Source: Antedon mediterranea (Eukaryota; Echinodermata; Crinoidea; Comatulida; Antedonidae). From it: a stretch of DNA of 64,000 nt. A program made the translations under genes and the position numbers. The stretch lies in assembly GCF_964355755.1 (NCBI RefSeq), contig NC_092680.1, positions 17,027,001 to 17,091,000 of the forward strand, written 5' to 3'. Positions 13,401 to 63,857 of this stretch are shown here, piece by piece (position 1 is the stretch's first letter; each line of letters opens with the position of its first letter). The notes below the pieces were generated by a model. It was not told the origin of the DNA. It saw only the letters and a list, made by a program, of their open reading frames with translations, and ran no database searches.

Positions 13401-16400
13401 ATGTTGAATGCATCACTTGTCTTGTCATGGGGTGTACATCTTGACTGGATGAGTTGAATATTGAATACATCAATTGTCTTGATATGGGGTGTACATCTTT
13501 ACTGGATGAGTTGAATGTTGAATGCATCACTTGTCTTGATATGGGGTGTACATCTTTACTGGATGAGTTGAATGTTGAATACATCAATTGTCTTGTCATG
13601 GGATGTACATCTTTACTGGATGAGTTGAATGTTGAATGCATCAATTGTCTTGTTATGGGATGTACATCTTTACTGGATGAGTTAAATGTTGAATACATCA
13701 ATTGTCTTGCTATGGGGTGTACATCTTTACTGGATGAGTTGAATGTTGAATGCATCAATTGTCTTGTTATGGGATGTACATCTTTACTGGATGAGTTGAA
13801 TGTTGAATGCATCAATTGTCTTGTTATGGGATGTACATCTTTATTGGATGAGTTTAAGGTTGAATACATCAATTGTCTTGTTATGGGATGTACATCTTTA
13901 TTGGATGAGTTTAAGGTTGAATACATCAATTGTCTTGTTATGGGATGTACATCTTTACTGGACGAGTTGAATGTTGAATACATCAATTGTCTTGTTATGG
14001 GACTGACATCTTTACTGGATGAGTTGAATGTTGAATACTTCAATTGTCTTGTTATGGGATGTACATCTTTACTGGATGAGTTGAATGTTGAATACATTAC
14101 TTAATCTTGTTATGGGGTGAATATCTTAACTGGATGAGTTGAATGTTAAATGCATCAATTGTCTTGTTATGGGGTGAACACCTTTACTGGATGAGTTGAA
14201 TGTTGAATGTATCAATTGTCTTGTTATGGGGTGAACATCTTTACTGGATGATATGAGTGTTAAATGCATCACTTGTCTTGTTATGGGATGTATATCTTTA
14301 CTGGATAAGTTAAATGTTGAATACATCAATTGTCTTGTTATGGGATGTACATGTTGACTGGATGAGTTGAATGTTGAATACATCAATTGTCTTGTTATTG
14401 GATGTACATCTTTACTGGATGAGTTGAATGTTGAATGCATCAATTGTCTTGTTATGGGATGTACATCTTTACTGGACGAGTTGAATGTTGAATACATCGA
14501 TTGTCTTGTTAAGGGACTTACATCTTTACTGGATGAGTTGAATGTTGAATACTTCAATTGTCTTGTTATGGGGTGTACATCTTTACTGGATGAGTTGAAT
14601 GTTGAATACATCACTTGTCTTTTTATGGGGTGTACATCTTTACTGGATGAGTTGAATGTTGAATACATCAATTGTCTTGTTATGGGGTGTACATCTTTAC
14701 TGGATGAGTTGAATGCTGAATACATCAATTATCTTGTAATGGGATGTACATCTTTACTGGATGAGTTGAATGTTGAATACATCAATTATCTTGTAATGGG
14801 ATGTACATCTTTACTGGATGAGTTGAATGTGAAATACATCAATTGTCTTGTTATGGGATGAACATCTTTACTGGATGAGTTGAATGTTGAACACATCAAT
14901 TATCTTGTAATGGGATGTACATCTTTACTGGATGAGTTGAATGTTGAATTCATCAATTGTCTTGTTATGGGGTGTACATCTTTACAGAATGAGATGAATG
15001 TTGAATACATCAATTGTCTTGTTATTGAGTGTACATCTTTACTGGATGAGTTTAATGTTGAATACATCAATTGTCTTGTTATAGGGTGTACATCTTGACT
15101 GGATGAGTTGAATGTTGAATGCATCACTTGTCTTGTCATGGGGTGTACATCTTTACTGGATGAGTTGAATGTTGAATACATCACCTGTCTTGTTATGGGG
15201 TGTACATCTTTACTGAATGAGTTGAATGTTGAATGCATCACTTGTCTTGTTATGGGGTGTACATCTTTACTGGATGAGTTTAATGTTTAATACATCACTT
15301 GTCTTGTTATGGGATGTACATCTTTACTGGATGAGTTGAATGTTTAATACATCACTTGTCTTGTTATGGGATGTACATCTTTACTGGATGAGTTGAATGT
15401 TGAATACATCAATTGCCTTGTTATGGGATGTACATCTTTACTGGATGAGTTGAATGTTGAATACATCAATTGTCTTGTTATGGGATGTACATCTTTACTG
15501 GATGAGTTGAATGTTGAATACATCACTTGTCTGGTTATGGGATGTACATCTTTACTGGATGAGTTGAATGTTGAATACATCAATTGTCTTGTTATGGGAT
15601 GTACATCTTTACTGGATGAGTTGAATGTTGAATACATCACTTGTCTTGTTATGGGATGTACATCTTTACTGGATGAGTTGAATGTTGAATACATCACTTG
15701 TCTTGTTATGGGATGTACATCTTTACTGGATGAGTTGAATGTTGAATACATCACTTAATCTTGTTATGGGATGTACATCTTTACTGGATGAGTTGAATGT
15801 TGAATACATCAATTATCTTGTAATGGGATGTACATCTTTACTGGATGAGTTGAATGTTGAATACATCAATTATCTTGTAATGGGATGTACATCTTTACTG
15901 GATGAGTTGAATGTGAAATACATCAATTGTCTTGTTATGGGATGAACATATTTACTGGATGAGTTGAATGTTGAATACATCAATTATCTTGTAATGGGAT
16001 GTACATCTTTACTGGATGAGTTGAATGTTGAATTCATCAATTGTCTTGTTATGGGGTGTACATCTTTACAGAATGAGATGAATGTTGAATACATCAATTG
16101 TCTTGTTATGGGATGTACATCTTTACTGGATGAGTTTAATGTTGAATACATCAATTGTCTTGTTATGGGATGTACATCTTTACTGGATGAGTTGAATGTT
16201 GAATACTTCAATTGTCTTGTTATGGGATGTACATCTTTACTGGATGAGTTGAATGTTGAATACATCAATTGTCTTGTTATGGGGTGTACATCTTTACTGG
16301 ATGAGTTGAATGTTGAATACATCAATTGTCTTGTTATGGGATGTACATCTTTACTGGATGAGTTTAATGTTGAATACATCACTTGTCTTGTTATGGGATG

Positions 16401-19400
16401 TACATCTTTACAGAATGAGATGAATGTTGAATACATCAATTGTCTTGTTATGGGATGTACATCTTTACAGAATGAGATGAATGTTGAATACATCAATTGT
16501 CTTGTTATGGGGTGTATATCTTTACTGGATGAGTTTAATGTTGAATACATCAATTGTCTTGTTATGGGTGTACATCTTTACTGGATGAGTTGAATGTTGA
16601 ATACTTCAATTGTCTTGTTATGGGATGTACATCTTTACTGGATGGGTTGAATGTTGAATACTTCGATTGTCTTGTTATGGGATGTACATCTTTACTGGAT
16701 GAGTTGAATGTTGAATACATCACCTAATCTTGTTATGGGATGTACATCTTTACTGGATGAGTTGAATGTTGAATACATCAATTGTCTAGTTATGGGATGA
16801 ACATCTTGACTGGATGAGTTGAATGTTGAATGCATCAATTGTCTTGTTATGGGATGTACATCTTTACTGGATGAGTTGAATGTTGAATACATCAATTGTC
16901 TTGCTATGGGTTGTACATCTTGACTGGATGAGTTGAATGTTGAATGCATCAATTGTCTTGTTATGGGATGTACATCTTTACTGGATGAGTTGAATGTTGA
17001 ATGCATCACTTGTCTTGTCATGGGGTGTACATCTTTACTGGATGAGTTGAATGTTGAATACATCAACTGTCTTGTTATGGGATGTACATCTTTACAGAAT
17101 GAGATGAATGTTGAATGCATCAATTGTCTTGTTATGGGATGTACATCTTTACTGGATGAGTTGAATGTTGAATGCATCACTTGTCTTGTCATGGGGTGTA
17201 CATCTTTACTGGATGAGTTGAATGTTGAATACATCACCTGTCTTGTTATGGGGTGTACATCTTTACAGAATGAGATGAATGTTGAATACATCAATTGTCT
17301 TGTTATGGGATGTACCTCTTTACAGAATGAGATGAATGTTGAATACATCAATTGTCTTGTTATGGGGTGTACATCTTGACTGTATGAATTGAATGTTGAA
17401 TACATCACCTGTCTTGTTATGGGGTGTACATCTTTACTGGATGAGTTGAATGTTGAATGCATCAATTGTCTTGTTATGGGATGTACATCTTTACTGTATG
17501 AGTTGAATGTTGAATACATCAATTGTCTTGTTATGGGATGTACATCTTTACTGGATGAGTTGAATGTTGAATGCATCAATTGTCTTGTTATGGGATGTAC
17601 ATCTTTATTGGATGAGTTTAAGGTTGAATACATCAATTGTCTTGTTATGGGATGTACATCTTTATTGGATGAGTTTAAGGTTGAATACATCAATTGTCTT
17701 GTTATGGGATGTACATCTTTACTGGACGAGTTGAATGTTGAATACATCAATTGTCTTGTTATGGGACTGACATCTTTACTGGATGAGTTGAATGTTGAAT
17801 ACTTCAATTGTCTTGTTATGGAATGTACATCTTTACTGGATGAGTTGAATGTTGAATACATTACTTAATCTTGTTATGGGGTGAATATCTTAACTGGATG
17901 AGTTGAATGTTAAATGCATCAATTGTCTTGTTATGGGGTGAACACATTTACTGGATGAGTTGAATGTTGAATGTATCAATTGTCTTGTTATGGGGTGAAC
18001 ATCTTTACTGGATGATATGAGTGTTAAATGCATCACTTGTCTTGTTATGGGATGTACATCTTTACTGGATAAGTTAAATGTTGAATACATCAATTGTCTT
18101 GTTATGGGATGTACATGTTGACTGGATGAGTTGAATGTTGAATACATCAATTGTCTTGTTATTGGATGTACATCTTTACTGGATGAGTTGAATGTTGAAT
18201 GCATCAATTGTCTTGTTATGGGATGTACATCTTTACTGGACGAGTTGAATGTTGAATACATCGATTGTCTTGTTAAGGGACTTACATCTTTACTGGATGA
18301 GTTGAATGTTGAATACTTCAATTGTCTTGTTATGGGAAGTACATCTTTACTGGATGAGTTGAATGTTGAATACATCACTTGTCTTTTTATGGGGTGTACA
18401 TCTTTACTGGATGAGTTGAATGTTGAATACATCAATTGTCTTGTTATGGGGTGTACATCTTTACTGGATGAGTTGAATGCTGAATACATCAATTATCTTG
18501 TAATGGGATGTACATCTTTACTGGATGAGTTGAATGTTGAATACATCAATTATCTTGTAATGGGATGTACATCTTTACTGGATGAGTTGAATGTGAAATA
18601 CATCAATTGTCTTGTTATGGGATGAACATCTTTACTGGATGAGTTGAATGTTGAACACATCAATTATCTTGTAATGGGATGTACATCTTTACTGGATGAG
18701 TTGAATGTTGAATTCATCAATTGTCTTGTTATGGGGTGTACATCTTTACAGAATGAGATGAATGTTGAATACATCAATTGTCTTGTTATTGAGTGTACAT
18801 CTTTACTGGATGAGTTTAATGTTGAATACATCAATTGTCTTGTTATAGGGTGTACATCTTGACTGGATGAGTTGAATGTTGAATACATCAATTGTCTTGT
18901 TATGGGATGTACATCTTTACTGGATGAGTTGAATGTTGAATACTTCAATTGTCTTGTTATGGGATGTACATCTTTACTGGATGAGTTGAATGTTGAATAC
19001 ATCACTTGTCTTGTTATGGGGTGTACATCTTTACTGGATGAGTTGAATGTTGAATACTTCAATTGTCTTGTTATGGGATGTACATCTTTACTGGATGAGT
19101 TGAATGTTGAATACATCACTTGTCTTGTTATGGGATGTACATCTTTACTGGATGAGTTGAATGTTGAATACATCACTTGTCTTGTTATGGGGTGTACATC
19201 TTTACTGGATGAGTTGAAAGTTGAATACATCAATTGTCTTGTTATGGGATGTACATCTTTACAGAATGAGATGAATGTTTAATACATCACTTGTCTTGTT
19301 ATGGGGTGTACATCTTTACTGAATGAGTTGAATGTTTAATACATCAATTGTCTTGCTATAGGGTGTACATCTTTACTGAATGAGTTGAATGTTGAATACA

Positions 19401-22400
19401 TCAATTGTCTTGTTATGGGGTGTACATCTTTACTGAATGAGTTGAATGTTGAATACATCAATTGTCTTGCTATGGGGTGTACATCTTTACTGAATGAGTT
19501 GAATGTTGAATACATATATTGTCTTGCTATGGGGTGTACATCTTTACTGAATGAGTTTAATGTTGAATGCATCACTTGTCTTGTTATGGGGTGTACATCT
19601 TTACTGGATGAGTTGAATGTTGAATGCATCACTTGTCTTGTTATGGGGTGTACATCTTTACTGAATGAGTTGAATGTTGAATACATCAATTGTCTTGCTA
19701 TGGGGTGTACATCTTTACTGAATGAGTTGAATGTTGAATACATCAATTGTCTTGCTATGGGGTGTACATCTTTACTGAATGAGTTGAATGTTGAATGCAT
19801 CACTTGTCTTGTTATGGGGTGTACATCTTTACTGGATGAGTTGAATGTTTAATACATCACTTGTCTTGTTATGGGATGTACATCTTTACTGGATGAGTTG
19901 AATGTTTAATACATCACTTGTCTTGTTATGGGGTGTACATCTTTACTGGATGAGTTGAATGTTGAATACTTCAATTGTCTTGTTATGGGATGTACATCTT
20001 TACTGGATGAGTTGAATGTTTAATACATCACTTGTCTTGTTATGGGGTGTACATCTTTACTGGACGAGTTGAATGTTGAATACATCAATTGTCTTGTTAT
20101 GGGATGTACATCTTTACTGGATGAGTTGAATGTTTAATACATCACTTGTCTTGTTATGGGGTGTACATCTTTACTGGATGAGTTGAATGTTGAATACTTC
20201 AATTGTCTTGTTATGGGATGTACATCTTTACTGGATGAGTTGAATGTTTAATACATCACTTGTCTTGTTATGGGGTGTACATCTTTACTGGACGAGTTGA
20301 ATGTTGAATACATCACTTGTCTTGTTATGGGATGTACATCTTTACAGAATGAGATGAATGTTGAATACATCACTTGTCTTGTTATGGGATGTACATCTTT
20401 ACAGAATGAGTTGAATGTTGAATACATCACTTGTCTTGTTATGGGGTGTACATCTTTACTGGATGAGTTGAATGTTGAATACATCAATTGCCTTGTTATG
20501 GGATGTACATCTTTACTGGATGAGTTGAATGTTGAATACTTCAATTGTCTTGTTATGGGGTGTACATCTTTACTGGATGAGTTGAATGTTGAATACATCA
20601 CTTGTCTGGTTATGGGATGTACATCTTTACTGGATGAGTTGAATGTTGAATACATCAATTGTCTTGTTATGGGATGTACATCTTTACTGGATGAGTTGAA
20701 TGTTGAATACATCAATTGTCTTGTTATGGGATGTACATCTTTACTGGATGAGTTGAATGTTGAATACATCACTTGTCTTGTTATGGGATGTACATCTTTA
20801 CTGGATGAGTTGAATGTTGAATACATCACTTGTCTTGTTATGGGATGTACATCTTTACTGGATGAGTTGAATGTTGAATACATCACTTAATCTTGTTATG
20901 GGATGTACATCTTTACTGGATGAGTTGAATGTTGAATACATCAATTATCTTGTAATGGGATGTACATCTTTACTGGATGAGTTGAATGTTGAATACATCA
21001 ATTATCTTGTAATGGGATGTACATCTTTACTGGATGAGTTGACTGTGAAGTACATCAATTGTCTTGTTATGGGATGAACATATTTACTGGATGAGTTGAA
21101 TGTTGAATACATCAATTATCTTGTAATGGGATGTACATCTTTACTGGATGAGTTGAATGTTGAATTCATCAATTGTCTTGTTATGGGGTGTACATCTTTA
21201 CAGAATGAGATGAATGTTGAATACATCAATTGTCTTGTTATGGGATGTACATCTTTACTGGATGAGTTTAATGTTGAATACATCAATTGTCTTGTTATGG
21301 GATGTACATCTTTACTGGATGAGTTGAATGTTGAATACTTCAATTGTCTTGTTATGGGATGTACATCTTTACTGGATGAGTTGAATGTTGAATACATCAA
21401 TTGTCTTGTTATGGGGTGTACATCTTTACTGGATGAGTTGAATGTTGAATACATCAATTGTCTTGTTATGGGATGTACATCTTTACTGGATGAGTTTAAT
21501 GTTGAATACATCACTTGTCTTGTTATGGGATGTACATCTTTACAGAATGAGATGAATGTTGAATACATCAATTGTCTTGTTATGGGATGTACATCTTTAC
21601 AGAATGAGATGAATGTTGAATACATCAATTGTCTTGTTATGGGGTGTATATCTTTACTGGATGAGTTTAATGTTGAATACATCAATTGTCTTGTTATGGG
21701 TGTACATCTTTACTGGATGAGTTGAATGTTGAATACTTCAATTGTCTTGTTATGGGATGTACATCTTTACTGGATGGGTTGAATGTTGAATACTTCGATT
21801 GTCTTGTTATGGGATGTACATCTTTACTGGATGAGTTGAATGTTGAATACATCACCTAATCTTGTTATGGGATGTACATCTTTACTGGATGAGTTGAAAG
21901 TTGAATACATCAATTGTCTAGTTATGGGATGAACATCTTGACTGGATGAGTTGAATGTTGAATGCATCAATTGTCTTGTTATGGGATGTACATCTTTACT
22001 GGATGAGTTGAATGTTGAATACATCAATTGTCTTGCTATGGGTTGTACATCTTGACTGGATGAGTTGAATGTTGAATGCATCAATTGTCTTGTTATGGGA
22101 TGTACATCTTTACTGGATGAGTTGAATGTTGAATGCATCACTTGTCTTGTCATGGGGTGTACATCTTTACTGGATGAGTTGAATGTTGAATACATCAACT
22201 GTCTTGTTATGGGATGTACATCTTTACAGAATGAGATGAATGTTGAATGCATCAATTGTCTTGTTATGGGATGTACATCTTTACTGGATGAGTTGAATGT
22301 TGAATGCATCACTTGTCTTGTCATGGGGTGTACATCTTTACTGGATGAGTTGAATGTTGAATACATCACCTGTCTTGTTATGGGGTGTACATCTTTACAG

Positions 22401-25400
22401 AATGAGATGAATGTTGAATACATCAATTGTCTTGTTATGGGATGTACCTCTTTACAGAATGAGATGAATGTTGAATACATCAATTGTCTTGTTATGGGGT
22501 GTACATCTTGACTGTATGAATTGAATGTTGAATACATCACCTGTCTTGTTATGGGGTGTACATCTTTACTGGATGAGTTGAATGTTGAATGCATCAATTG
22601 TCTTGTTATGGGATGTACATCTTTACTGTATGAGTTGAATGTTGAATACATCAATTGTCTTGTTATGGGATGTACATCTTTACTGGATGAGTTGAATGTT
22701 GAATGAATCAATTGTCTTGCTATGGGGTGTACATCTATACTGGATGAGTTGAATGTTTAAAGCATCACTTGTCTTGTTATGGGATTTACATCTTTACTGG
22801 ATGAGTTGAATGTTGAATACATCAATTGTCTTGTTATGGGGTGTACATCTTTACTGGATGAGTTGAATGTTGAATGCATCGATTGTCTTGTTATGGGATG
22901 TACATCTTTACTGTATGAGTTTAATGTTGAATACATCACTTAATCTTGTTATGGGATGTACATCTTATCTGGATAAGTTTATTGTTGAATACATCATTTG
23001 TCTTGTCATGGGGTGTACATCTTTACTGGATAAGTTTATTGTTGAATACTTCAATTGTCTTGTTATGGGGTGTACATCTTTACTGGATGAGTTGAATGTT
23101 GAATACATCACTTGTCTTGTTATGGGGTGTACATCTTGACTGGATGAGTTGAATGTTGAATACATCAATTGTCTTGTTATGGGGTGTACATCTTTACTGG
23201 ATGAGTTGAATGTTGAATGCATCAATTGTCTTGTTATGGGATGTACATCTTTACTGGATGAGTTGAATGTTGAATACATCGATTGTCTTGTTATGGGATG
23301 TACATCTTGACTGGATGAGTTGAATGTTGAATACATCACTTGTCTTGTTATGGGGTGTACATCTTTACTGGATGAGTTGAATGTTGAATACATCACTTGT
23401 CTTGTTATGGGGTGTACATCTATACTGGATGAGTTGAATGTTGAATGCATCACTTGTCTTGTTATGGGGTGTACATCTATACTGGATGAGTTGAATGTTT
23501 AATGCATCACTTGTCTTGTTATGGGATGTACATCTTTACTGGATGAGTTGAATGTTGAATACATCAATTGTCTTGTTATGGGGTGTACATCTTTACTGGA
23601 TGAGTTGAATGTTGAATACATCAATTGTCTTGCTATGGGGTGTACATCTTTACTGGATGAGTTGAATGTTGAATACATCATTTGTCTAATTGTTATGGGA
23701 TGTACATCTTTACTGGATGAGTTGAATGTTGAATACATCAATTGTCTTTCTATGGGGTGTACATCTTGACTGTATGAGTTGAATGTTGAATGCATCACTT
23801 GTCTTGTCATGGGGTGTACATCTTTACTGGATGAGTTGAATGTTTAATGCATCAATTGTCTTGTTATTGAGTGAACATCTTGACTGTATGAGTTGAATGT
23901 TGAATACATCACTTGTCTTGTCATGGGGTGTACGTCTTTACTGGATAAGTTTATTGTGGAATACATCAATTGTCTTGTTATGGGGTGTACATCTTTACTG
24001 GATGAGTTGAATGTTGAATACATCAATTGTCTTGTTATGGGATGTACATCTTTACTGGATGAGTTGAATGTTGAATACATCACTTAATCTTGTTATGGGG
24101 TGTATATCTTTACTTGATGAGTTGAATGTTGAATACATCAATTGTCTTGTTATGGGATGTACATCTTTACTGGATGAGTTTAATGTTGAATACATCACTT
24201 GTCTTGTTGTGGGATGTACATCTTTACAGAATGAGATGAATGTTGAATACATCAATTGTCTTGTTATGGGATGTACATCTTTACAGAATGAGATGAATGT
24301 TAAATACATCAATTGTCTTGTTATGGGATGTACATCTTTACAGAATGAGATGAATGTTGAATACATCAATTGTCTTGTTATGGGGTGTATATCTTTACTG
24401 GATGAGTTTAATGTTGAATACATCAATTGTCTTGTTATGGGATGTACATCTTTACTGGATGAGTTGAATGTTGAATGCATCAATTGTCTTGTTATGGGAT
24501 GAACATCTATACTGGATGAGTTGAATGTTTAATGCATCACTTGTCTTGTCATGGGATTTACATCTTTACTGGATGAGTTGAATGTTGAATACATCAATTG
24601 TCTTGTTATGGGATGTACCTCTTTACTGGATGAGTTGAATGTTGAATACATCACTTGTCTTGTTATGGGGTGTACATCTTTACTGGATGAGTTGAATGTT
24701 GAATACATCAATTGTCTTGTTGTGGGATGTACATCTTTACTGGATGAGTTGAATGTTGAATACATCAATTGTCTTGTTATGGGATGTACATCTTTACTGG
24801 ATGAGTTGAATGTTGAATGCATCAATTGTCTTGTTATGGGATGAACATCTATACTGGATGAGTTGAATGTTTAATGCATCACTTGTCTTGTTATGGGATT
24901 TACATCTTTACAGAATGAGATGAATGTTGAATACATCAATTTTCTTGTTATGGGGTGTACATCTTGACTGTATGAATTGAATGTTGAATACATCACCTGT
25001 CTTGTTATGGGGTGTACATCTTTACTGGATGAGTTGAATGTTGAATGCATCAATTGTCTTGTTATGGGATGTACATCTTTACTGTATGAGTTGAATGTTG
25101 AACACATCAATTGTCTTGTTATGGGATGTACATCTTTACTGGATGAGTTGAATGTTGAATGCATCAATTGTCTTGCTATGGGTGTACATCTATACTGGAT
25201 GAGTTGAATGTTTAATGCATCACTTGTCTTGTTATGGGATTTACATCTTTACTGGATGAGTTGAATGTTGAATACATCAATTGTCTTGTTATGGGGTGTA
25301 CATCTTTACTGGATGAGTTGAATGTTGAATGCATCACTTGTCTTGTCATGGGGTGTACATCTTTACTGGATGAGTTGAATGTTTAATGCATCAATTGTCT

Positions 25401-26477
25401 TGTTATTGAGTGTACATCTTGACTGTATGAGTTGAATGTTGAATACATCACTTGTCTTGTCATTGGGTGTACATCTTTACTGGATGAGTTGAATGTTGAA
25501 TACATCAATTGTCTTGTTATGGGATGTACATCTTTACTGGATGAGTTGAATGTTGAATACATCACTTGTCTTGTTATGGGGTGTACATCTTGACTGGCTG
25601 AGTTGAATGTTGAATACATCAGTTGTCTTGTTATGGGGTGTACATCTTGACTGGCTAAGTTGAATGTTGAATACATCAGTTGTCTTGTTATGGGATGTAC
25701 ATCTTTACTGGATAAGTTTAATGTTGAATACATCAATTGTCTTGTTATTGAGTGTACATCTTGACTGGATGAGTTGAATGTTGAATGCATCACTTGTCTT
25801 GTCATGGGGTGTACATCTTGACTGGATGAGTTGAATGTTGAATACATCAATTGTCTTGTTATAGGGTGTACATCTTGACTGGATGAGTTGAATGTTAAAT
25901 GCATCACTTGTCTTGTTATGGGGTGTACATCTTGACTGGCTAAGTTGAATGTTGAATACATCAATTGTCTTGTTATGGGGTGTACATCTTTACTGGATGA
26001 GTTGAATGTTCAATACATCAATTGTCTTGTTATTGGATGTACATCTTTACTGGATGAGTTGAATGTTGAATACATCACTTGTCTTGTTATGGGGTGTACA
26101 TCTTGACTGGCTAAGTTGAATGTTGAATACATCAATTGTCTTGTTATGGGGTGTACATCTTTACTGGATGAGTTGAATGTTGAATACATCAATTGTCTTG
26201 TTATTGGATGTACATCTTTACTGGATGAGTTGAATGTTGAATACATCAATTGTCTTGTTATGGGATGTACATCTTTACTGGATGAGTTGAATGTTGAATA
26301 CATCACTTTTCTGGTTATGGGATGTACATCTTTACTGGACGAGTTGAATGTTGAATACATCACTTTGTCTTGTTATGGGATGTACATCTTTTCTGGATGA
26401 GTTGAATGTTAAATACATCAGTTTTATGGTTTCCGGTAGTGCACATCATTACTGGATAAGTTGAATGCATCACAGAC
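10483..26477. repeat. Satellite 4: 57-bp megasatellite, about 280 copies over 16 kb
   Basis: The unit runs GTTGAATACATCAATTG, TCTTGTTATGGGATGTAC, ATCTTTACTGGATGAGTT. Because 57 is 3 x 19, both strands are open over long stretches: the plus strand repeats NVEYINCLVMGCTSLLDEL and the minus strand MYSTFNSSSKDVHPITRQL, with frames up to 389 codons. Stops arise only in variant units (CTTGACTGG, GTTTAATAC, CACTTAATC). Sub-variants cluster in blocks, for example CAGAATGAGATG and GGACAACTTG. There are no splice sites, promoter or unique domain, so I call this satellite and not gene. Edge units (10.5-12.9 kb and 25.4-26.5 kb) are more divergent than central ones. Confidence 0.96.
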
Positions 26478-32350: not shown

Positions 32351-32615
32351 CCACTGATTGTGAGGGCGTTTGTTGTATGAGAGAATGTATCTGGTGGGTG
32401 AAAATCTGTGATAATACCATACATGGCTCTGTGGTCTAGTGGTATGATACTCGCCCTGTAAGCGAGAGGTTGCAGGTTCGAATCCAGCCAGAGACATTTT
32501 TTCATACAACTAAAAAATATGGAACTTTCGCCAATGAGCTATGCTCGACGCGATTATGAGATCATGTTCCGAATATGAGCACTGTTTCTATAATTTACAG
32601 TATGATTTATATATA
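32351..32615. repeat. Tandem duplication copy A around a tRNA-like gene
   Basis: About 265 bp starting CCACTGATTGTGAGGGCG is repeated almost without change at 32718-32983, an offset of 367 bp. Both copies include the tRNA-like sequence, its T-tract and about 100 bp of 3' flank, and both run into AT-rich simple sequence. The near-identity implies a recent duplication or ongoing conversion. Confidence 0.93.
32425..32496 (+). tRNA. tRNA-like gene, UGU anticodon (copy A), probably degenerate
   Basis: A cloverleaf can be drawn: acceptor GGCTCTG/CAGAGAC with one mismatch, A-box TGGTCTAGTGG, anticodon stem CTCGC/GCGAG with loop CCTGTAA, B-box GGTTCGAATCC, then a T6 terminator. The anticodon would be UGU (Thr), but position 33 is C instead of the near-universal U, and the T-stem has an A-A mismatch. 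The body resembles tRNA-Pro more than tRNA-Thr. It is either a Pol III-competent pseudogene or a tRNA-derived repeat. Confidence 0.5.
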
Positions 32616-32717
32616 ATTTACACAGTGCTACGCAACATCATTGATTTACATATACAAAATATTATTTAAAAAACCGTTGCGAATTAAAGTTGGAATTTAT
32701 TCTGACTTGTTAAGCCT

Positions 32718-32983
32718 CCACTGATTGTGAGGGCGTTTGTTGTATGAGAGAATGTATCTGGTGGGTGAAAATCTGTGATAATACCATACATGGCTCTGTG
32801 GTCTAGTGGTATGATACTCGCCCTGTAAGCGAGAGGTTGCAGGTTCGAATCCAGCCAGAGACATTTTTTCATACAACTAAAAAATATGGAACTTTCGCCA
32901 ATGAGCTATGCTCGACGCGATTATGAGATCATGTTCCGAATATGAGCACTGTTTCTATAATTTACAGTATGATTTATATATAT
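32718..32983. repeat. Tandem duplication copy B around a tRNA-like gene
   Basis: Second copy of the 265-bp segment at 32351-32615. It ends in the long ATATAC microsatellite instead of an ATATAATTTACACAG spacer. Confidence 0.93.
32792..32863 (+). tRNA. tRNA-like gene, UGU anticodon (copy B)
   Basis: Identical to the copy at 32425-32496, including the C33 loop, the acceptor and T-stem mismatches and the T6 terminator. The 3' duplication flank is also shared. The same doubts about function apply. Confidence 0.5.
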
Positions 32984-33017
32984 ACATATATATATATATA
33001 TATACATATATATATAC

Positions 33018-33086
<69 letters not shown>

Positions 33087-33101
33087 TATATATATATACA
33101 C
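32976..33101. repeat. (ATATAC)n / (AT)n microsatellite
   Basis: About 125 bp of ATACAT hexamers with flanking AT dinucleotides, directly abutting copy B of the tRNA-like duplication. Confidence 0.95.
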
Positions 33102-33206
33102 ATTAGGCAATGAACATTAAATCGAAACCGCCCGGTGATATACTGAAATTTTATTAATTAATTTGAAACGATAAAGATGAGGAAATCTGTGAGAATGAGA
33201 AAAAGT

Positions 33207-33278
33207 CGCCCAAACCGAGAATCGAACTCGGACCGCCTGCTTGATATGCAGATGTCCTAACCATTAGACCACTGAGGC
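33207..33278 (-). tRNA. tRNA-like sequence, AUC anticodon, degenerate
   Basis: On the minus strand: GCCTCAG, A-box TGGTCTAATGG, anticodon arm TCTGC-ATATCAA-GCAGG, a perfect T-arm CCGAG-TTCGATT-CTCGG and a T5 tract. The anticodon reads AUC (Asp), which eukaryotes do not normally use (they use GUC). The acceptor pairs poorly with TTTGGGC (two G-T pairs and one mismatch). The D-arm resembles tRNA-Glu. It is probably a pseudogene or the head of a tRNA-derived SINE. Confidence 0.45.
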
Positions 33279-33366
33279 TTTCATGGTATTGTTATATATA
33301 ACAGGTTGAAATTATCAGACCGTTGGGATAGAGTGCTCAATACCAAGGTAGAGCATAAATAAATAA

Positions 33367-33401
33367 AATAACAGCAGAAAACTTGGTTACTTCATTGTTT
33401 T
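33367..33401. repeat. Left arm of a perfect 35-bp inverted repeat bounding a retroelement remnant
   Basis: Begins AATAACAGCAGAAAACTTGG and is the exact reverse complement of 33817-33851. The two arms bracket the Penelope-like coding remnant and its ribozyme. The reading frame of the remnant starts inside this arm. Confidence 0.95.
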
Positions 33402-33674
33402 TGGAACGAAAAACTAAGAAATGCAACGGAACTCAGTAAATATATATGGACACTTAAAGACTCTAAAACAAATTACTCAATTAAATGGAAAATTATAAAG
33501 AAATGCAAACCTTACTCAAATATTAACAAAAGATGTAATTTATGTATATATGAAAAGTATGTTATTATATGTCAACCAGAGCTATGCTCACTGAACCGTA
33601 AAAACAAGTTAGTCTCTACTTGTAGACATAGGAAAAAATTCTTACTAAATTGCAGATCCAAACAGTTTATCTAA
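33399..33674 (+). pseudogene. Penelope-like retroelement remnant: C-terminus of GIY-YIG endonuclease region
   Basis: A 91-residue open stretch reads FWNEKLRNATELSKYIWTLK and continues with IKWKI, KPYSN, CNLC, EKYVII, ELCSLNRKN, LVSTCRHRKKFLLN and a TAA stop. This succession (NATELSKYIW, then the CxxC, the NxRxxLxSxCRH block) is the one I know from the end of the GIY-YIG endonuclease of Penelope-like elements. The reverse transcriptase and the N-terminal half of the endonuclease are absent, so this is a short 3' fragment. Family assignment is from memory of the motif order, not from a search. Confidence 0.75.
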
Positions 33675-33758
33675 AACAATAGGCTATTGTATACGACTTC
33701 CTGATGACTCACTTTTATTAAGCACTATGAGACAACTGTGTCACTTATGTTTTATATT

Positions 33759-33814
33759 TCACCTGAAGAGTGCGGCCAGCTACATGCTGGTCGTACGAAA
33801 CAAATTTGTAGTGA
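33759..33814 (+). ncRNA. Hammerhead ribozyme (type I-like) at the 3' end of the Penelope-like remnant
   Basis: The core elements are complete. Helix I is TCAC (33759-33762) with GTGA (33811-33814). CTGAAGA lies at 33763-33769. Helix II is 11 bp, GTGCGGCCAGC/GCTGGTCGTAC, with loop TACAT. GAAA lies at 33797-33800. Helix III is a short palindromic ACAAATTTGT, and the cleavage triplet GUA ends at 33810. Two G-U pairs sit in helix II. Position 7 is A, which the CUGANGA consensus tolerates. Its placement inside the repeat arm of a Penelope-like element matches where such ribozymes are known. Activity is inferred. Confidence 0.75.
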
Positions 33815-33816
33815 TT

Positions 33817-33851
33817 AAAACAATGAAGTAACCAAGTTTTCTGCTGTTATT
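33817..33851. repeat. Right arm of the perfect 35-bp inverted repeat
   Basis: Ends ...AAGTTTTCTGCTGTTATT and complements 33367-33401 exactly. It starts three bases after the hammerhead's 3' helix strand. The next element begins immediately at its end. Confidence 0.95.
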
Positions 33852-35287
33852 AGGTTATATGCATGATATGCATATAACCTCTTGATTCTGTCAAAATCTT
33901 TATTTATTTATTTATTTATTTATTCTTTCCTTAGCACTATTTTGTCCGTGCATTATCTTGGCATCAGTTTAATCTAGCTAAGTCAATTTTTCAGAGTATA
34001 TTCCTTATGGCCAGGAATCGATGTGGTTATATTTTCACGATGCGTAATCAAAAATTACGCGGTCTACGCGCGATTTTACGAAATCACGTTTGTAATCATA
34101 TCTTCACAAGCGTGAATCACAATTAAACAAAATTTGGTACTCATAAATTTCAGGTCATATTTCATCATATGGCAATAAAATTACGTGCGTAGCGCATATA
34201 ACGCTTGCGTACGCGCGCTTAAAATGTTCAAAATTGTCAAAATTTATTTTCGATGAAATTAGAGTACGTTTCAGGCAATTTTAAGCGTTTAAAAAATTGC
34301 CATGAGTGCGCACAATTTTGCACGCGCACTGCGCGTTAAACGTTAATGCGCACTCTTTTTGCCGGATTTCTGTTTTACAATCTTTCTTTAATAATATCCT
34401 CATATTTGGTTCAGGTTTCAACTCGAAATTGCGTTATACGGGCACATCAAAAGTGACTGGCTACGCACGTATAAGTTAACAAAATGGTGAAAATATGCTA
34501 AATTTTAAAATTAATATATATCGTCAGAATGCAGGGGAACACCTATTTTTTATTTCATTTTCTTGAAGTGTATGTATCATATGTATGATTTATTATCAAA
34601 TTAAGAGAACAAAACTTGATTAAGTCATCATTAATTGCATATTAAATTTAAAAAAAATAATTTCGACAATCAAACAAATTATGACATTTTCTTAGGCCAA
34701 AATAACAAACTTAACATTAACTTTCTTCCTTCCAAAGTTCATATATTAAAGTTAAAAGTATATAGTTTGACAGTGCATCATTTGTTTACATTTTAAAGAT
34801 GTCATCATAGTAAAAAATTATAATTCATTGCGGTATGTAATAATCTATTTCCACCAAACTGGTTACTGCATAGTAAATACACGGAGGAATTTTTCTACAA
34901 CTTTTAGTCAGTGGTGTATGGCTTGATGGTCTGTGCTCGTGTCTATGGCATTCAAGGTACCGAGATCGAGTCTCACCTTGGGAAACGAAATAAGATTTTT
35001 TTTTTATTATCCGTATTGTTTGTTCAAATTTATTTCTTAGTGTATAGATTATACACATGATTTATAATGAAATCTAGATAAAAATTAACTTATGTCTTTA
35101 TTATTATGTAACAACAAATGTGGTTTATGACATTATACGCATATGGATCTTTGATCGGATTGTGATACCGGCTATGGTGGTCGCGTCCTATCATATAATA
35201 TAAATAATTAAAGATTCTGAGAAAATCAATCAATCAATATATCTTTTAAAAATTAATTATCTTTATTTAAATCAATGCATATAACCT
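33852..35287. mobile_element. Non-autonomous element, 1.44 kb, AGGTTATATGCAT inverted termini
   Basis: Termini AGGTTATATGCAT (33852-33864) and ATGCATATAACCT (35275-35287) are perfect 13-bp inverted repeats. At the left the same sequence also forms a local hairpin with 33868-33879. The interior is non-coding, with clusters of CGCG-containing words (ACGCGCGATTTTACG, GTACGCGCGCTT) and a (TTTA)n run. Just outside the right end is a second hairpin, AATTCGTCA-TAG-TGACGAATT (35290-35310), followed by CTAG. If this belongs to the element, it would be a Helitron-like 3' end. Class is therefore uncertain. Confidence 0.6.
34911..35005 (+). mobile_element. Possible tRNA-derived SINE head with T tract
   Basis: An A-box-like TGGCTTGATGG and a B-box-like AGATCGAGTCT are spaced as in a tRNA. 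They are followed by CTTGGGAAACGAAATAAG and a run of about 10 T. No cloverleaf closes well. It lies inside the 1.44-kb element and may be a nested insertion. Confidence 0.35.
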
Positions 35288-38869: not shown

Positions 38870-38951
38870 GTAGTCGTGGCCGAGTGGTTAAGGCGATAGA
38901 CTAGAAATCTATTGGGGTCTCCCCGCGCAGGTTCGAATCCTGCCGACTACG
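38870..38951 (+). tRNA. tRNA-Ser (AGA anticodon)
   Basis: A full class II tRNA of 82 nt. Its acceptor is GTAGTCG/CGACTAC, its A-box TGGCCGAGTGG, its anticodon arm ATAGA-CTAGAAA-TCTAT with AGA, its long variable arm TTGGGGTCTCCCCGC, and its B-box GGTTCGAATCC. It is followed by a T7 terminator at 38955-38961. It matches the animal tRNA-Ser(AGA) closely. The anticodon stem carries an A-U pair where vertebrates have G-C, a paired substitution that keeps the helix. It looks functional. Confidence 0.96.
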
Positions 38952-41091: not shown

Positions 41092-42964
41092 CTATTCTAG
41101 CTCTTCAACCTCTATTATTGGTTCCATGATTCTTGCAACTCTACTAACGTTTCGAAATTTATGTTTATTTCTAATTAAAAAGGTTTTTTGACCGCTTCCA
41201 CTAGGTTTATTTTCTTTCACAACAGGAGCCCGTCTGTACTCGACCGTCATACCACAAATTTTCTGTAGTCTTCGCATATAGCAATCCTGATCAAATCGAA
41301 CGTCGTCAATTTGGTCTTGAACCGTGTTAATTTTCTGCAGGTTGTACGAAACCATTTCCATCCGTCGACTGGATTCACGCCTAAGCTTTGAGGCGATTAA
41401 ATCAAGAACTTCGCCTCGATGCAAGCCATGGCAATCAGGAACCGGATTCTGACAAATTCTAGCCCAGTCTGATCTTGCTCGCTCAACCTGTTGGATCAAA
41501 CATTTGCTGAGAGTGACGATGGAATTAAGTTGTTGATCGACGTGGGTTAGAGGACTTGCATCTACATCATACTCTTCACTTGGATCCTCTTGATCTTCCA
41601 GAAAGTGTACTACAGCGTCTTTATCCTTCTCGGTGACGTCATCACAATACATTCTTACATTGTCCCAATATGTGGAATACTCCAGCTCCTCCATGTCTTT
41701 CTTTATTTCGAAAGAGTCAAACGATTCCTCTTTTTCGTCATCATTGAAATCCAGTGTGTTGGTGTGCACTGTCAACTGTTCGTTGTCTTCCGTTTTCTCT
41801 GTCTTAACTGTCAATTTTGCTGATACGTGGTCAATGCTGTTGGAGGCTCGTACGTCGCGTTCTGCCTGTACGCATTTGCTCAACATTTTCACTTCCTTGG
41901 TGTTTACTGATTTGTCTGCCATTTCAAATGAACGTGTCATTGTGCCACTCTCTGTCAACTCTTTTTTGAGTGTCTGTGTCTCGTCATCAACCATTTTTGG
42001 TTTGACCTTTTTACTTCTGCCTTTTTTGGTGAGACGTGCCAATCTAAAGGCTTCACTAAGCTTTCCTCTCTTTTTCTTCGTTGGCTTCTCTTCTTCATTG
42101 GAAGTTTCTGCATCAGGTCCTGTTGATGTCTGTGAAACTGTGCTGTCCATCTTCTCCTCCAAAGAAGTCTCCGAAGCAGTAGATAGTTCAGGGCTTTTGG
42201 TAGCACCAACTGATGCAGCTTTGGCGGATGGTGGGCGTTTAGATGACGCAATACCAATTGAGAAATCATCATCTTCTCCCATTACGTTTCTAATTTCTAC
42301 TTGAAGGGCATCCCATTTTCTGACTTCTCTTTCTCGTTTCAGTTCTTCCCTTCGACGGCGTCGAGCAGCGGGGTTCTCAGAGCCAGGAATATTTTCTTCC
42401 ACTCTACTGAATGATTTAACACCAGACTTAGTAATTCTACCAACTGTTGTATATCTAGCTGCTGACGATGTACTTGCAACAGCTTGACCAGTAGTAGGCC
42501 CACTGGTTGTAGCGGCATTTGAATCTTCATTGGAAACAACCTGGATAACAAACAAATATATATAATATAAACAAAATTATGTATTAGTATGGTTAAATTA
42601 CAATGTGATCGGGAATAAACGGTTTGCTTACCTGCTGTTGTCGACGGTTAAAGAATCTACGAAACCGTGCAAAGCGACGCCACCATGGAGAGGATGGACG
42701 TGCCTATCAATAAATAAGATAAAAATCGTAAAAAACAACTTCTTAATAAACCATTAAATGCCTATGACCCCGACTAGGCTACACCTCGTTTGCACAACAA
42801 GACTATCGAACACCACTTCTGCGCACTCTTGTCTTCTATAAAATTTCACGCAGTACCTTCTTAAAAGTATCGCTTAAAATCAAGCATTCTTTACTCACGT
42901 TTTCTTTCCGATATTCTTCATTTTGTTTTTGTCGTTTATCAACTGATTGTTTACTTTCAGCCAT
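41092..42964 (-). CDS. Unrecognised 528-residue protein, tandem copy 1 (three exons)
   Basis: Exons are 42899-42964, 42632-42703 and 41092-42540. Donors GTGAGT and GTAAGC and both AG acceptors are clean, and both introns are phase 0. The start is MAESKQSVDKRQKQNEEYRK. Exon 2 gives a striking aromatic/arginine segment, WWRRFARFRRFFNRR. Exon 3 holds a low-complexity Ser/Thr region, a basic stretch (RRRRRE, about residues 106-111) and an NLS-like pair, KKKRGK and KKGRSKKVKPK (about 201-228). An acidic middle (DDEKEESFDSFE) follows, then a helix-rich C-terminus with many charged residues. No catalytic motif, signal peptide or membrane segment is seen. I do not recognise the family. Nuclear location is inference. 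The antisense frames over exon 3 are by-products. Confidence 0.85.
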
Positions 42965-44173: not shown

Positions 44174-46046
44174 CTATTCTAGCTCTTCAACCTCCATTAT
44201 TGGTTCCATGATTCTTGCAACTCTACTAACGTTTCGAAATTTATGTTTATTTCTAATTACAAAGGTTTTTTGACCGCTTCCACTAGGTTTATTTTTTTTC
44301 ACAACAGGAGCTCGTCTGTACTCGATCGTCATACCACAAATATTCTGTAGTCTTCGCATATAGCACTCCTGATCAAATCGAACGTCGTCAATTTGGTCTT
44401 GAACCGTGTTAATTTTCTGCAGGTTGTACGAAACCATTTCCATCCGTCGACTGGATTCACGCCTAAGCTTTGAGGCGATTAAATCAAGAACTTCGCCTCG
44501 ATGCAAGCCATGGCAATCAGGAACCGGATTCTGACAAATTCTAGCCCAGTCTGATCTTGCTCGCTCAACCTGTTGGATCAAACATTTGCTGAGAGTGACG
44601 ATGGAATTAAGTTGTTGATCGACGTGGGTTAGAGGACTTGCATCTACATCATACTCTTCACTTGGATCCTCTTGATCTTCCAGAAAGTGTACTACAGCGT
44701 CTTTATCCTTCTTGGTGACGTCATCACAATACATTCTTACATTGTCCCAATATGTGGAATACTCCAGCTCCTCCATGTCTTTCTTTATTTCGAAAGAGTC
44801 AAACGATTCCTCTTTTTCGTCATCATTGAAATCCAGTGTGTTGGTGTGCACTGTCAACTGTTCGTTGTCTTCCGTTTTCTCTGTCTTAACTGTCAATTTT
44901 GCTGATACGTGGTCAATGCTGTTGGAGGCTCGTACGTCGCGTTCTGCCTGTACGCATTTGCTCAACATTTTCACTTCCTTGGTGTTTACTGATTTGTCTG
45001 CCATTTCAAATGAACGTGTCATTGTGCCACTCTCTGTCAACTCTTTTTTGAGTGTCTGTGTCTCGTCATCAACCATTTTTGGTTTGACCTTTTTACTTCT
45101 GCCTTTTTTGGTGAGACGTGCCAATCTAAAGGCTTCACTAAGCTTTCCTCTCTTTTTCTTCGTTGGCTTCTCTTCTTCATTGGAAGTTTCTGCATCAGGT
45201 CTTGTTGATGTCTGTGAAACTGTGCTGTCCATCTTCTCCTCCAAAGAAGTCTCCGAAGCAGTAGATAGTTCAGGGCTTTTGGTAGCACCAACTGATGCAG
45301 CTTTGGCGGATGGTGGGCGTTTAGATGACGCAATACCAATTGAGAAATCATCATCTTCTCCCATTACGTTTCTAATTTCTACTTGAAGGGCATCCCATTT
45401 TCTGACTTCTCTTTCTCGTTTCAGTTCTTCCCTTCGACGGTGTCGAGCAGCGGGGCTCTCAGAGCCAGGAATATTTTCTTCCACTCTACTGAATGATTTA
45501 ACACCAGACTTAGTAATTCTACCAACTGTGGTATATCTAGCTGCTGACGATGTACTTGCAACAGCTTGACCAGTAGTAGGCCCACTGGTTGTAGCGGCAT
45601 TTGAATCTTCATTGGAAACAACCTGGATAACAAACAAATATATATAATATAAACAAAATTATGTATTAGTATGGTTAAATTACAATGTGATCGGGAATAA
45701 ACGATTAGCTTACCTGCTGTTGTCGTCTATTTCGACGGTTAAAGAATCTACGGAACCGTGCAAAGCGACGCCACCATGGAGAGGATGGACGTGCCTATCA
45801 ATAAATAAGATAAAAATCGTAAAAAACTTCTTAATAAACCATTAAATGCCTATGACCCCGACTATAGGTTACACCTCGTTCGCACAATAAGACGATCGAA
45901 CACCACTTCTGCACACTCTTGTCTCCTATCAAATTTCACGCAGTAGCCTACCTTCTTAAAATCAAGCATTCTTTACTCACGTTTTCTTTGCGATATTCTT
46001 CATTTTGTTTTTGTAGTTTATCAACTGATTGTTTATTTTCAGCCAT
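44174..46046 (-). CDS. Unrecognised 531-residue protein, tandem copy 2 (three exons)
   Basis: Exons are 45981-46046, 45714-45794 and 44174-45622, with the same splice layout as copy 1 at an offset of 3082 bp. Exon 2 is 9 nt longer (three extra residues, NRR), extending the arginine-rich run. Exon 3 differs from copy 1 at about ten residues out of 482. Six of these fall in the last ~60 residues (D-E, K-N, V-I, E-K, L-V, I-M), and the long middle is almost identical. Both copies are open and correctly spliced, so both are probably functional. The 5' flank beyond 46110 is unrelated to that of copy 1. Confidence 0.85.
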
Positions 46047-50934: not shown

Positions 50935-51636
50935 CTACCGTTTTGTTGAAAATGTGAAAAGAAGCGAAACTAGTAGCGTCACAAATGTCCATGCTTGCGA
51001 GGCTTGTAACACATTAGTCCTATTGGGTTCATTATCGCCCCGCACTATTGGTGGGGGATCTTGTTCAAATATACTAGTTCTATTTGCAAGTACACGTTTG
51101 GGATTGGGATGCAGTCTTTTTACATCCATGAAGGCATGTTGTGCAGCAAGCGAAAAGTTTGCATTGCCAGTTGTCATGAGGTCAAACACACATGAATCAA
51201 AATAGTCATTTGTAACTTCTGCCTTTTTACATTTGGCAACTGCTTCTACGCGAGAAGTTAATTTTCGAGATGGATCAAGGTTATCGAGCTGTTTATATCG
51301 GAGATTTAAAAAGTCTTTGAAATAAATTCTTTCCCGAGCTGGGCATCCTTTGACGCACAATTGCAACGCGTCATCTTCCTTATCCTGGATTAAATCCCTT
51401 GGCATACTGAGGGCAAAGGTCAGAAATCGTCCGACCTGACGAAGCACGATGGTTGTTGCCACGTATTGAAGGTGTATTTCTACGTGTTTTCTCGGTACAA
51501 CATCTAGAATGACCACACTCTGGCTAGGCCCACTTGTGTTTGTGCCATCCAGGAACGCAGCTGGTAGTCTCCCACTCTCGGCGAAATAGATCTTCTGCTC
51601 GGCACATTTAGCATTGGATTTGATCACAACAGAAAT
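50935..51636 (-). CDS. RGM: Repulsive guidance molecule (RGM), last coding exon
   Basis: This exon encodes the C-terminal 233 residues. It follows a TTTGTTCTAG acceptor in phase 0, joining directly to the exon at 63325. RGMs are GPI-anchored co-receptors for BMP ligands and neogenin. The visible RGM blocks are LPAAFLDGT, HVEIHLQYVATTIVLRQVGR, LTFALSMP, LCVKGCP, YFDSCVFDLMTTGNANFSLA and DVKRLHPN. N-glycosylation sequons are NFS and NRT (twice). A final hydrophobic stretch, AWTFVTLLVSLLFTF, fits a GPI signal, though it ends in the charged STKR, so a short transmembrane tail is an alternative. An RGD tripeptide lies at 51034-51042. I cannot assign it to RGMa, b or c; a single invertebrate RGM is most likely. 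Confidence 0.95.
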   Translation of the reverse strand: MSVVIKSNAKCAEQKIYFAESGRLPAAFLDGTNTSGPSQSVVILDVVPRKHVEIHLQYVATTIVLRQVGRFLTFALSMPRDLIQDKEDDALQLCVKGCPARERIYFKDFLNLRYKQLDNLDPSRKLTSRVEAVAKCKKAEVTNDYFDSCVFDLMTTGNANFSLAAQHAFMDVKRLHPNPKRVLANRTSIFEQDPPPIVRGDNEPNRTNVLQASQAWTFVTLLVSLLFTFSTKR

Positions 51637-53032: not shown

Positions 53033-53478
53033 ATGTCCAGAAGGAATGTCCAGAAGGGATGTCCAGAAGGAATATCCAGAAGGAATGTCCAAAAGGAATG
53101 TCCAGAAGGGATATCCAGAAGGGATATCCAGAAGGGATATCCAGAAGGGATGTCCAGAAGGAATGTCCAGAAGGGATGTCCAGAAGGAATGTCTAGAAGG
53201 GATGTCCAGAAGGAATGTCTAGAAGGGATGTCCAGAAGGAATGTCCAGAAGGAATGTCCAGAAGGGATGTCCAGAAGCGATGTCCAGAAGGAGTGTCCAG
53301 AAGGGATATCCAGAAGGGATATCCAGAAGGAATGTCCAGAAGGGATGTCCAGAAGGAATGTCCAGAAGGGATGTCCAGAAGGGATGTCCAGAAGGAATGT
53401 CCAGAAGGGATGTCCAGAAGAAATGTCCAGAAGGGATGTCCAGAAGCGATGTCCAGAAGGAATGTCCAGAAGGGATGT
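53033..53478. repeat. 13-bp minisatellite, about 34 copies
   Basis: Unit ATGTCCAGAAGGG/A, with GATATCC, TCTAG and AAGCG variants. Because 13 is not a multiple of three, three units give a 13-residue repeat in every frame (MSRRNVQKECPEG on plus, LLDIPSGHSFWTS on minus). No frame contains a systematic stop. I therefore treat the overlapping 80-163-codon frames as artefacts. It lies in the RGM intron. Confidence 0.95.
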
Positions 53479-61825: not shown

Positions 61826-63324
61826 AAAACCTAATTAAATCAAACTGTTGTTTATGGTATGCTGACGCAGGCCTACTGTATTTCAATTGTCTCGAAATAT
61901 AACATACCAACGATGTCTAAAATAATGAAAGAATTATATTGAATATATGACAGAATACTGATATACGTAGCATGTTGATACACAGAGACCCCCTTTTTCT
62001 GGAAACCCTAAGGGGACATTTTTCATGAAACGAACGAAGGACGATACATACAGTACTGCAATATTAAGGAGACATTTTGTAGAGTTCCAAGGTGGTCCCT
62101 AATAGGGGTTTGTACTGGTTCTGACGTTCTAATTGTATTGTGAGACTGCCGTGTGTAATTTACACTCGGTCTAAAGCAAGAGAATTGGTAGAAAATTTCA
62201 CGTAGAATGTCGTGGGTTTTCTTCTTCCGTTGGGTGATTCACTTATTATTATATCCGAACCCTGCCAACAAAATGCTTAACTCGAGCGATTTGAGGATTG
62301 AAGCATAGACACGGTGACGGGCTTAAAATTGGTGACGAAAGGAGAGCGACAAGCTTGGTTGAAGCCGTCATTGTCTGGCAGATGATAACAGGGCCTAGCC
62401 TAATTCGTTGTGTATTAAAGGAAGGGAGCCTGTAACAAAATTATCGGCGAAATAAGCTAATTCAATTACCCTATTCTAAAACGTGCAAACATTACACAAC
62501 TTTTGTTCTAATACCGTAATGGTTTAGCTTCAAAACTACTCGACTAAACGAGAGGTCATTCTAGGATGCGATAGCATAAAAATGACATTTGTTAACCATG
62601 ATATATATAGGATCAGCGAGGTTTGTGGATTAGATTATTTTAAATTAAACCATTCGATAATACAATACAATACTATAGTCACCAAAAAACATAGTAAACG
62701 AACTTTCAAAATACAACGATGTCAAATGTAAATGATGTGAGAAAATGAATCAGAATTTTAACATAAATTTGTTTGCTCCGATCGAAATAGGAACATTCAA
62801 ATGTGTGAATCATTATTTAGGCTAGTATACGACCATGTAATATATAACAGTAGACTTGAGCTCTGAAAGCCGTAGTATAAATTATCCATTTATTCATAAA
62901 TTAATTGGTACTGTAGGCCTATGCAGAAGTTCATATTCGATCATTAAAATGTAATCAGTACCTTGAATAGTAAACGTATCTCGGTGGAATGTAACCCAGA
63001 GATATGACCAGTGATTGACCTAGTGGACAATACAATCAATCTATTCTTTGAAGGGCTCGAGTCAAGTTAATCGCCTTGAGTTAAATCTATTGTTCATGCA
63101 AGGATCAAATCGATTCAATCGAAGATGGAAGTGACCATTGTAAGTCCGAAAAGCACACTTGAATAAGAAGGGGGTAGATTAAGGGAACTTAATTAACTCA
63201 GTAGACAATACGTTAACCTTTAATCTCGGGGCCAATCTGTGCTCATCTAAGAACTGTCTAAAAAAGAAACAATAATGATTACTGCAGGACATAAATTTCT
63301 GCAGATATTTTTTGCATAACTTAC

Positions 63325-63857
63325 CTTACTCGTAGCCGTTGCTCCAGACGATCCATTCACTGGTATATTTGTAACACTCACGGCTACATAGTCATTATAA
63401 ACCAGTGGCCATGCACCAGACACTTTACACGTTTGAAATTCATCATAAAACGTTCTTAAATGCGGGTCTCCAAAAATGCCACAATGTGCTAAATCCTCCG
63501 TCTTACGAGAACCACGATAGTCACATGTATTGTCTCGTTGTGGTGGCGTAGGACGGGGTCTCCGCGCAGTGACCGTTAACTCCCGCGTCCCCTTTGGACG
63601 ACGGGTAGTTGTCGGGACGTTTGCTAAAACATTTTCACAGTCGTATAGCTGCATATAATCAGGAATGTATGTTGTGATTGTGTGGTAGTTAAGGTTTCCA
63701 CGACATGAACTAGCCGTCCTCTGGGTACAAGTTCGATATCTTTCCAGAGCTTGACAACGTAATAGAACGTCAGATTCAGCGAGAGAGTCTGTAGCTGAAG
63801 AGTACTGCTTTGTACAACGAACTACTTTACAATCAGACGACGAAAATTGAGTACAAG
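63325..63857 (-). CDS. RGM: RGM, internal exon with the N-terminal domain and GDPH site
   Basis: The acceptor (CTTTGTAG) is at 63858 and the donor at 63324. Two bases plus 177 codons continue a reading frame from an upstream exon outside the window, which must hold the start and signal peptide. RGM hallmarks in order are the Cys-rich start (CTQFSSSDCKVVRC), the block YRTCTQRTASSCRGNLNYH, then CDYRGSR, CGIFGDPHLRTFYDEFQTCK and GAWPLVYNDYVAVSVTNIPV, followed by ATATSK. GDPH (63460-63471) is the acid-labile Asp-Pro self-cleavage site of the family, within a partial von Willebrand D domain. The RGD of vertebrate RGMs at the CRGD position is RGN here (63694-63702). An extra Pro/Thr/Arg-rich linker (TTTRRPKGTREL..ARRPRPTPPQR) precedes the D domain. 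Confidence 0.96.

Follow-up and report, generated by a model that had tools for sequence, protein, structure and literature searches.

What kind of element places a hammerhead-like RNA motif and the end of an endonuclease-type reading frame between perfect inverted repeats, all within 485 bp? The locus that raises this question occupies positions 33367-33851 of the window, by which we mean the whole 64-kb stretch of DNA that was analyzed. We find that it is very probably a 5'-truncated Penelope-like retrotransposon insertion in an animal genome, at which both strands of the target acted as primers. The arms, the core of the RNA motif, and the order and spacing of the parts are read directly from the sequence (Table 1).

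Table 1. Features of the locus and of the sequence directly to its right, in window positions.
Feature	Positions	Strand	Basis
Left end, 35 nt of element terminal sequence, inverted	33367..33401	-	100% complementary to 33817-33851
Probable Penelope-type GIY-YIG endonuclease C-terminus, 90 codons; GIY and YIG motifs missing	33402..33671	+	Open frame; signature of the family
Probable 3' pseudo-LTR, most of the hammerhead inside	33675..33816	+	Position between ORF stop and arm; Penelope anatomy (PMC3846280)
Type I hammerhead, 75 nt, predicted cleavage after A33810	33748..33822	+	90-nt MFE fold, motif null, coordinates
Candidate element ORF start, ATG across loop II and helix II	33784..33831	+	Translation MLVVRNKFVVIKTMK, then a stop at codon 16
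Same 35 nt in direct orientation, possible tail	33817..33851	+	Length of 35 nt; published tails 30-40 bp (PMC11167929) and 31 bp (PMC3846280)
Palindrome, 29 nt, 13-bp arms, 3-nt loop	33852..33880	.	Repeat listing; DNA fold of -11.2 kcal/mol

The reading frame

The open frame begins within the left arm and spans 33372-33674, ending with a TAA stop at 33672-33674. Its portion outside the arm carries the strings TELSKYIW, RCNLCIYEK, and LVSTCRHRKKFLL. From the signature of the family we take this portion to be a probable C-terminus of a Penelope endonuclease, and presumably the part that follows the GIY and YIG motifs, both of which are absent here. The first-pass annotation had described a GIY-YIG C-terminal fragment. 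The 90-codon frame is indeed present, but no tool confirmed the GIY-YIG assignment, and the fragment matched nothing in Pfam or NCBIfam. Penelope-like elements have an RT related to telomerase; neither an RT domain nor any other Pfam match was found for the frame, and the 485 bp contain no frame longer than 100 aa in the open-frame listing.

Wider searches with the fragment were also negative. A tblastn search of phages gave no match, two PDB matches (E values of 1.1 and 7.9) were taken as chance, and a structure model of the fragment had a pLDDT of 38. Among possible relatives, 4 pattern-matching stretches in viral contigs and 56 in genome contigs were considered, with none confirmed in either set. 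The endonuclease motif occurs at 4 loci in viral contigs, and a longer form of it at none there and at 2 in genome contigs. We rejected all six as relatives because the best tblastn alignment of the fragment to them (E 0.054) covers 9 residues, which are the pattern itself. Since the contig collections searched were bacterial, archaeal, phage, and viral, the lack of relatives among them says little about the origin of the fragment.

The hammerhead motif

The 75-nt motif has the conserved hammerhead core (CUGANGA...GAAA...UH) together with all three helices, and it is open through helix I. The core is formed by CTGAAGA at 33763-33769, GAA at 33797-33799, and A17 at position 33810. Helix II has eleven base pairs (33770-33780/33786-33796), as the first-pass annotation had stated. 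Helix III is short (33800-33802/33807-33809) and is closed by the loop AATT, while helix I consists of a proximal part (33759-33762/33811-33814) and seven distal base pairs (33748-33754/33816-33822). One strand of helix I had been said to abut the right arm. The core of the motif is complete, but the distal part of helix I overlaps the arm by 6 nt (33817-33822).

This arrangement is the MFE structure of the 90-nt segment 33746-33835, with an energy of -25.0 kcal/mol and a z-score of -3.3, and none of 200 shuffled sequences was equally stable. In the MFE structure of a longer, 159-nt segment (33740-33898) helix II is kept, and the strands of helices I and III take different partners. Judged by the core and the 90-nt fold, the locus has the type I hammerhead near the pseudo-LTR end that marks Penelope elements, although Rfam is silent on it and the 159-nt fold differs.

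A descriptor scan of both strands returned a single match. In a control of 60 Markov windows we obtained 13 loose matches and no strict ones, and 4000 such windows gave 614 loose matches. Because these were spread over 466 of the 4000 windows, the bare descriptor is not decisive. Matches with at least four base pairs in helix I numbered 18 in the 4000 windows when helix II was required to have at least six base pairs, and 6 when it was required to have at least eight. With the eleven base pairs of helix II observed here, a chance origin of the motif is unlikely, and we disfavor it. A second hammerhead-like string, CTGATGA, lies upstream at 33701-33707; the scan, in which a GAAA partner is needed within about 60 nt, gave no match there.

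No Rfam hammerhead family matched over the window at the gathering threshold, nor did any match in 651 bases at E<=5 or in 106 bases at E<=10. The Rfam check proposed for the motif thus came back empty at three stringencies, and the core is complete nonetheless. Matches below threshold to sroD, STnc50, mir-785, and toga_FSE were rejected as chance, with scores far under gathering. The long helix II may have lowered the Rfam score of our motif. The hammerheads of Penelope elements are minimal, atypical variants according to PMC7761336, in agreement with the earlier remark that hammerheads are known in such elements. The hammerhead pattern was also found at two loci in viral contigs, which we set aside; their frames appear phage-coding by eye, and the best tblastn match of the fragment there had an E value of 0.87.

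The segment 33800-33809 (ACAAATTTGT), in the helix III region, is self-complementary, and two RNAs can therefore share a helix III of ten base pairs. A two-strand fold with this intermolecular helix has a predicted energy of -60.8 kcal/mol, compared with twice -25.0 kcal/mol for the separate strands. The minimal type I motifs of Penelope elements have been suggested to cleave as dimers (PMC7761336), and dimeric action is reported as demonstrated for newt and salamander motifs (PMC7761336 and PMC7229834). Our motif resembles the minimal Penelope hammerheads (Cervera and de la Pena 2014 and Lunse 2017, as related in PMC7761336) in being of type I and in having a helix III that is weak, self-complementary, and favorable for dimer formation. 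It differs from them in that helix III, usually lacking there, has three base pairs, in its eleven-base-pair helix II, and in the absence of an Rfam match. From its sequence, any cleavage of the RNA would be expected after A33810. For the anole element, cleavage was observed only when protein was supplied, and mutating the ribozyme had no effect on insertion in vitro (PMC11167929).

A probable pseudo-LTR and a candidate start of the ORF

The putative pseudo-LTR is 142 bp long. We draw its limits by analogy with Penelope anatomy, the locus having no second pseudo-LTR to define them. Counted from the candidate ATG at 33784, cleavage would be expected after nucleotide +27. The 35-nt piece starts 7 nt beyond that site and runs from codon 12 (+34) into codon 23 (+68, which is position 33851). 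The hammerhead of the anole element cuts 26 bp beyond its start codon (PMC11167929), and the pseudo-LTR of Adineta Pen2a spans 12 codons of the ORF, or 22 with the tail (PMC3846280). The in-frame stop at codon 16 of our candidate falls within the 35-nt piece, so that both arms contain it; either the template was already defective, therefore, or the ATG at 33784 is not the start.

Inverted arms and boundaries

A repeat search and self-BLAST agree that the two arms are 35 nt each and 100% complementary, with a spacer of 415 nt, which bears out the perfect inverted repeats reported before. Among the 41 longest perfect pairs listed (partners within 2 kb, low-complexity words excluded), they are the sole pair of at least 20 nt outside the repeat region at 3.7-7.4 kb. 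The exactness of the arms had also been read as a sign of recent formation or of maintenance. Thirty-five identical sites out of 35, however, bound the divergence of the arms only weakly, to a pairwise value below about 8%, and do not show maintenance.

The arms stop where complementarity stops, and their ends therefore fix the left piece only; the right end of the element may be at 33851 or further on. When 33341-33369 was compared with the sequence from 33846 onward, no exact direct repeat of at least 6 bp was found, and no target-site duplication of at least 3 bp was found at the boundaries when three choices of the right end were compared. Since TA is present in both arms close to their outer ends, a 2-bp TA duplication is possible. 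Penelope insertions that have no target-site duplication are described in PMC3846280. Self-BLAST revealed no second copy of the 485-bp unit in the window.

The palindrome, AGGTTATATGCAT-GAT-ATGCATATAACCT, begins at the base directly after the right arm. It may be an element hairpin, target sequence, or a product of the junction. Because the 13-mer ATGCATATAACCT recurs once, at 35275-35287, the palindrome may be an old target or another repeat, and because the window holds two further hairpins of such size (arm length 12 or more, loop length 5 or less), we give it less weight. A TTTA repeat starts at 33899. An element end at 33898 would correspond to +115 of the candidate ORF and would fall within the range of 111-118 bp into the ORF where the main RT start of the anole element lies, within a stem loop (PMC11167929); this coincidence is suggestive only, the two elements not having been aligned.

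How the insertion may have formed

We propose that the insertion began with an element protein cutting an AT-rich target on both strands, and that each of the exposed 3' ends then served as a primer for reverse transcription within the element RNA, beyond the hammerhead. One strand would have yielded a long cDNA running through the hammerhead, the pseudo-LTR, and the endonuclease end, and the other merely 35 nt, which would form the present inverted left end. The two cDNAs would then have been joined at 33401/33402, the hammerhead being included as an ordinary component of the pseudo-LTR. In this scheme we infer the family, the priming events, and the lengths of the cDNAs. If the element ends at 33851, the same RNA nucleotide would have been primed by both strands, and if it continues through the hairpin, for example to 33898, priming would have occurred on either side of the hairpin. 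Should the palindrome be element RNA, priming of the left end would have taken place at the foot of the hairpin, and priming of the right end past that hairpin.

Several of these steps have counterparts in the anole element (PMC11167929). Cutting and extension there involve both target strands, the preferred cut being at 5'-ATT-3' in AT-rich DNA; the RT start is identical for top and bottom target strands, and two RT start sites delimit the tail of 30-40 bp. Penelope copies are also described as 5'-truncated, and some carry pLTRs in inverted orientation and short extensions at the 3' end (PMC8969392). The insert of Adineta Pen2a is completed by an inverted pseudo-LTR and has a tail of 31 bp (PMC3846280). 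Our locus resembles Pen2a of Adineta vaga and PAc of Anolis in the order of putative endonuclease end, putative pseudo-LTR, hammerhead (PAc), and possible tail, in the length of that tail, in its AT-rich surroundings, and in an ATG about 26 nt ahead of the cleavage site; with Pen2a it shares an inverted terminal piece (PMC3846280). Unlike both, it is only 485 bp long and has no RT domain, its inverted piece is just 35 nt, no target duplication was found, and the candidate ORF start is followed by an in-frame stop at codon 16.

The hairpin admits a further possibility, namely that the cut bottom strand folded back and copied itself into the 13-bp hairpin before priming reverse transcription. 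Palindromes at inverted Penelope junctions have been interpreted as the result of self-priming (PMC3846280). We regard such a fold-back as quite improbable here; that the hairpin is element RNA, with reverse transcription of the left end starting at its foot, is likelier.

Alternative origins of the locus

The first-pass annotation stressed the packaging of the locus into a small inverted-repeat unit that could move, and a non-autonomous TIR unit (MITE-like, or a package mobilised by Penelope) moving as a 485-bp whole would suit the perfect 35-bp arms around so compact a unit, as would the possible TA duplication within both arms. No other duplication was found, of at least 3 bp at the boundaries or of at least 6 bp nearby, and there is no second copy in the 64-kb window. 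Part of helix I of the ribozyme falls within the arm, which agrees with a Penelope tail in both place and length. Moreover, the minimum RNA for the anole protein in vitro extends over ORF nucleotides 1-172 (PMC11167929). The present copy ends at +68 or about +115, and a transcript of it would, by analogy, be missing some of the RNA required by the protein. A mobile small unit is unsupported on these three grounds, the missing RNA, duplication, and second copy, and we consider it very unlikely; by the same analogy the insertion is probably immobile. A retrozyme or a piece of one, that is, a small non-autonomous hammerhead retroelement spreading through circular RNA, is scarcely credible. The locus does share with animal retrozymes a type I hammerhead and a short AT-rich unit, its helix III is weak, and retrozymes and Penelope elements are reported to coexist (PMC7229834). 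Yet the type I hammerhead repeats of animals are, in the same source, tandem repeats of 150-450 bp, each with a hammerhead, whereas the window has a single motif in a single copy, no tandem array, and a 90-codon frame of endonuclease type.

The arms might also have arisen in two steps, through a normal 5'-truncated Penelope insertion to which the left arm was added later by inverted duplication or recombination. A 35-bp inverted copy with a divergence limit of about 8% cannot be dated, and a single locus fits either history, but the inverted piece matches a Penelope tail in length and in place, which is unexpected for a random duplication, and we judge this history very improbable. Some observations also count against the insertion by two-strand priming that we favor: the protein has no database relative and an uninformative model, no Rfam hammerhead matched, the 159-nt MFE structure is without hammerhead helices I and III, the candidate ORF has its stop at codon 16, and neither a target-site duplication nor a second copy in the window was found. 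Weighing these together, we hold that the 485-bp copy is most likely an ordinary shortened Penelope-like retrotransposon that retained the self-cleaving RNA motif customary in such elements. The known mode of Penelope insertion most likely accounts for its inverted ends, with no need for a new type of mobile unit.

Other features of the window

Four tRNA matches were obtained in the window with Rfam at the gathering threshold. The tRNA calls lie at 32424-33278 and 38870-38951, and they include one tRNA-Ser and two tRNA-Thr (tgt) 367 bp apart, each of the latter followed directly by a 116-nt direct repeat of 100% identity with the same 367-bp spacing. On the minus strand, the call of a tRNA-Asp (anticodon atc) ends 88 bp before the element. 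On the right side of the window, parts of a repulsive guidance molecule gene are found on the minus strand at 50935-51636 and 63247-63873, the exons matching Pfam RGM_C (6.5e-54 and 6.6e-26) and RGM_N (2.7e-15); their presence suggests an animal host.

The window is also rich in repeats. At 10484-26467 a 57-bp unit (19 codons) is repeated about 280 times in a 16-kb array that has long open stretches on both strands, and about 34 copies of a 13-bp unit, likewise with open frames on both strands, are located at 53033-53478. Two minus-strand open frames of 494 aa, at 41092-42576 and 44174-45658, are 3082 bp apart and nearly identical by eye. Arrays of a 24-bp repeat lie near both, and the frame at 41092-42576 has no Pfam match.

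Implications for Penelope insertion

Taken alone, the locus is of small significance. It is a compact natural case of the junctions that are expected if both target strands prime the Penelope RT within the element RNA, a form of priming for which PMC11167929 gives an in vitro report with the anole element. If the fold-back were true, the locus would record self-priming of DNA at a Penelope junction, a suspected step for which we met no demonstration in the literature surveyed. A set of comparable truncated copies from one genome could test two-strand priming, as well as the position of priming relative to the hairpin.
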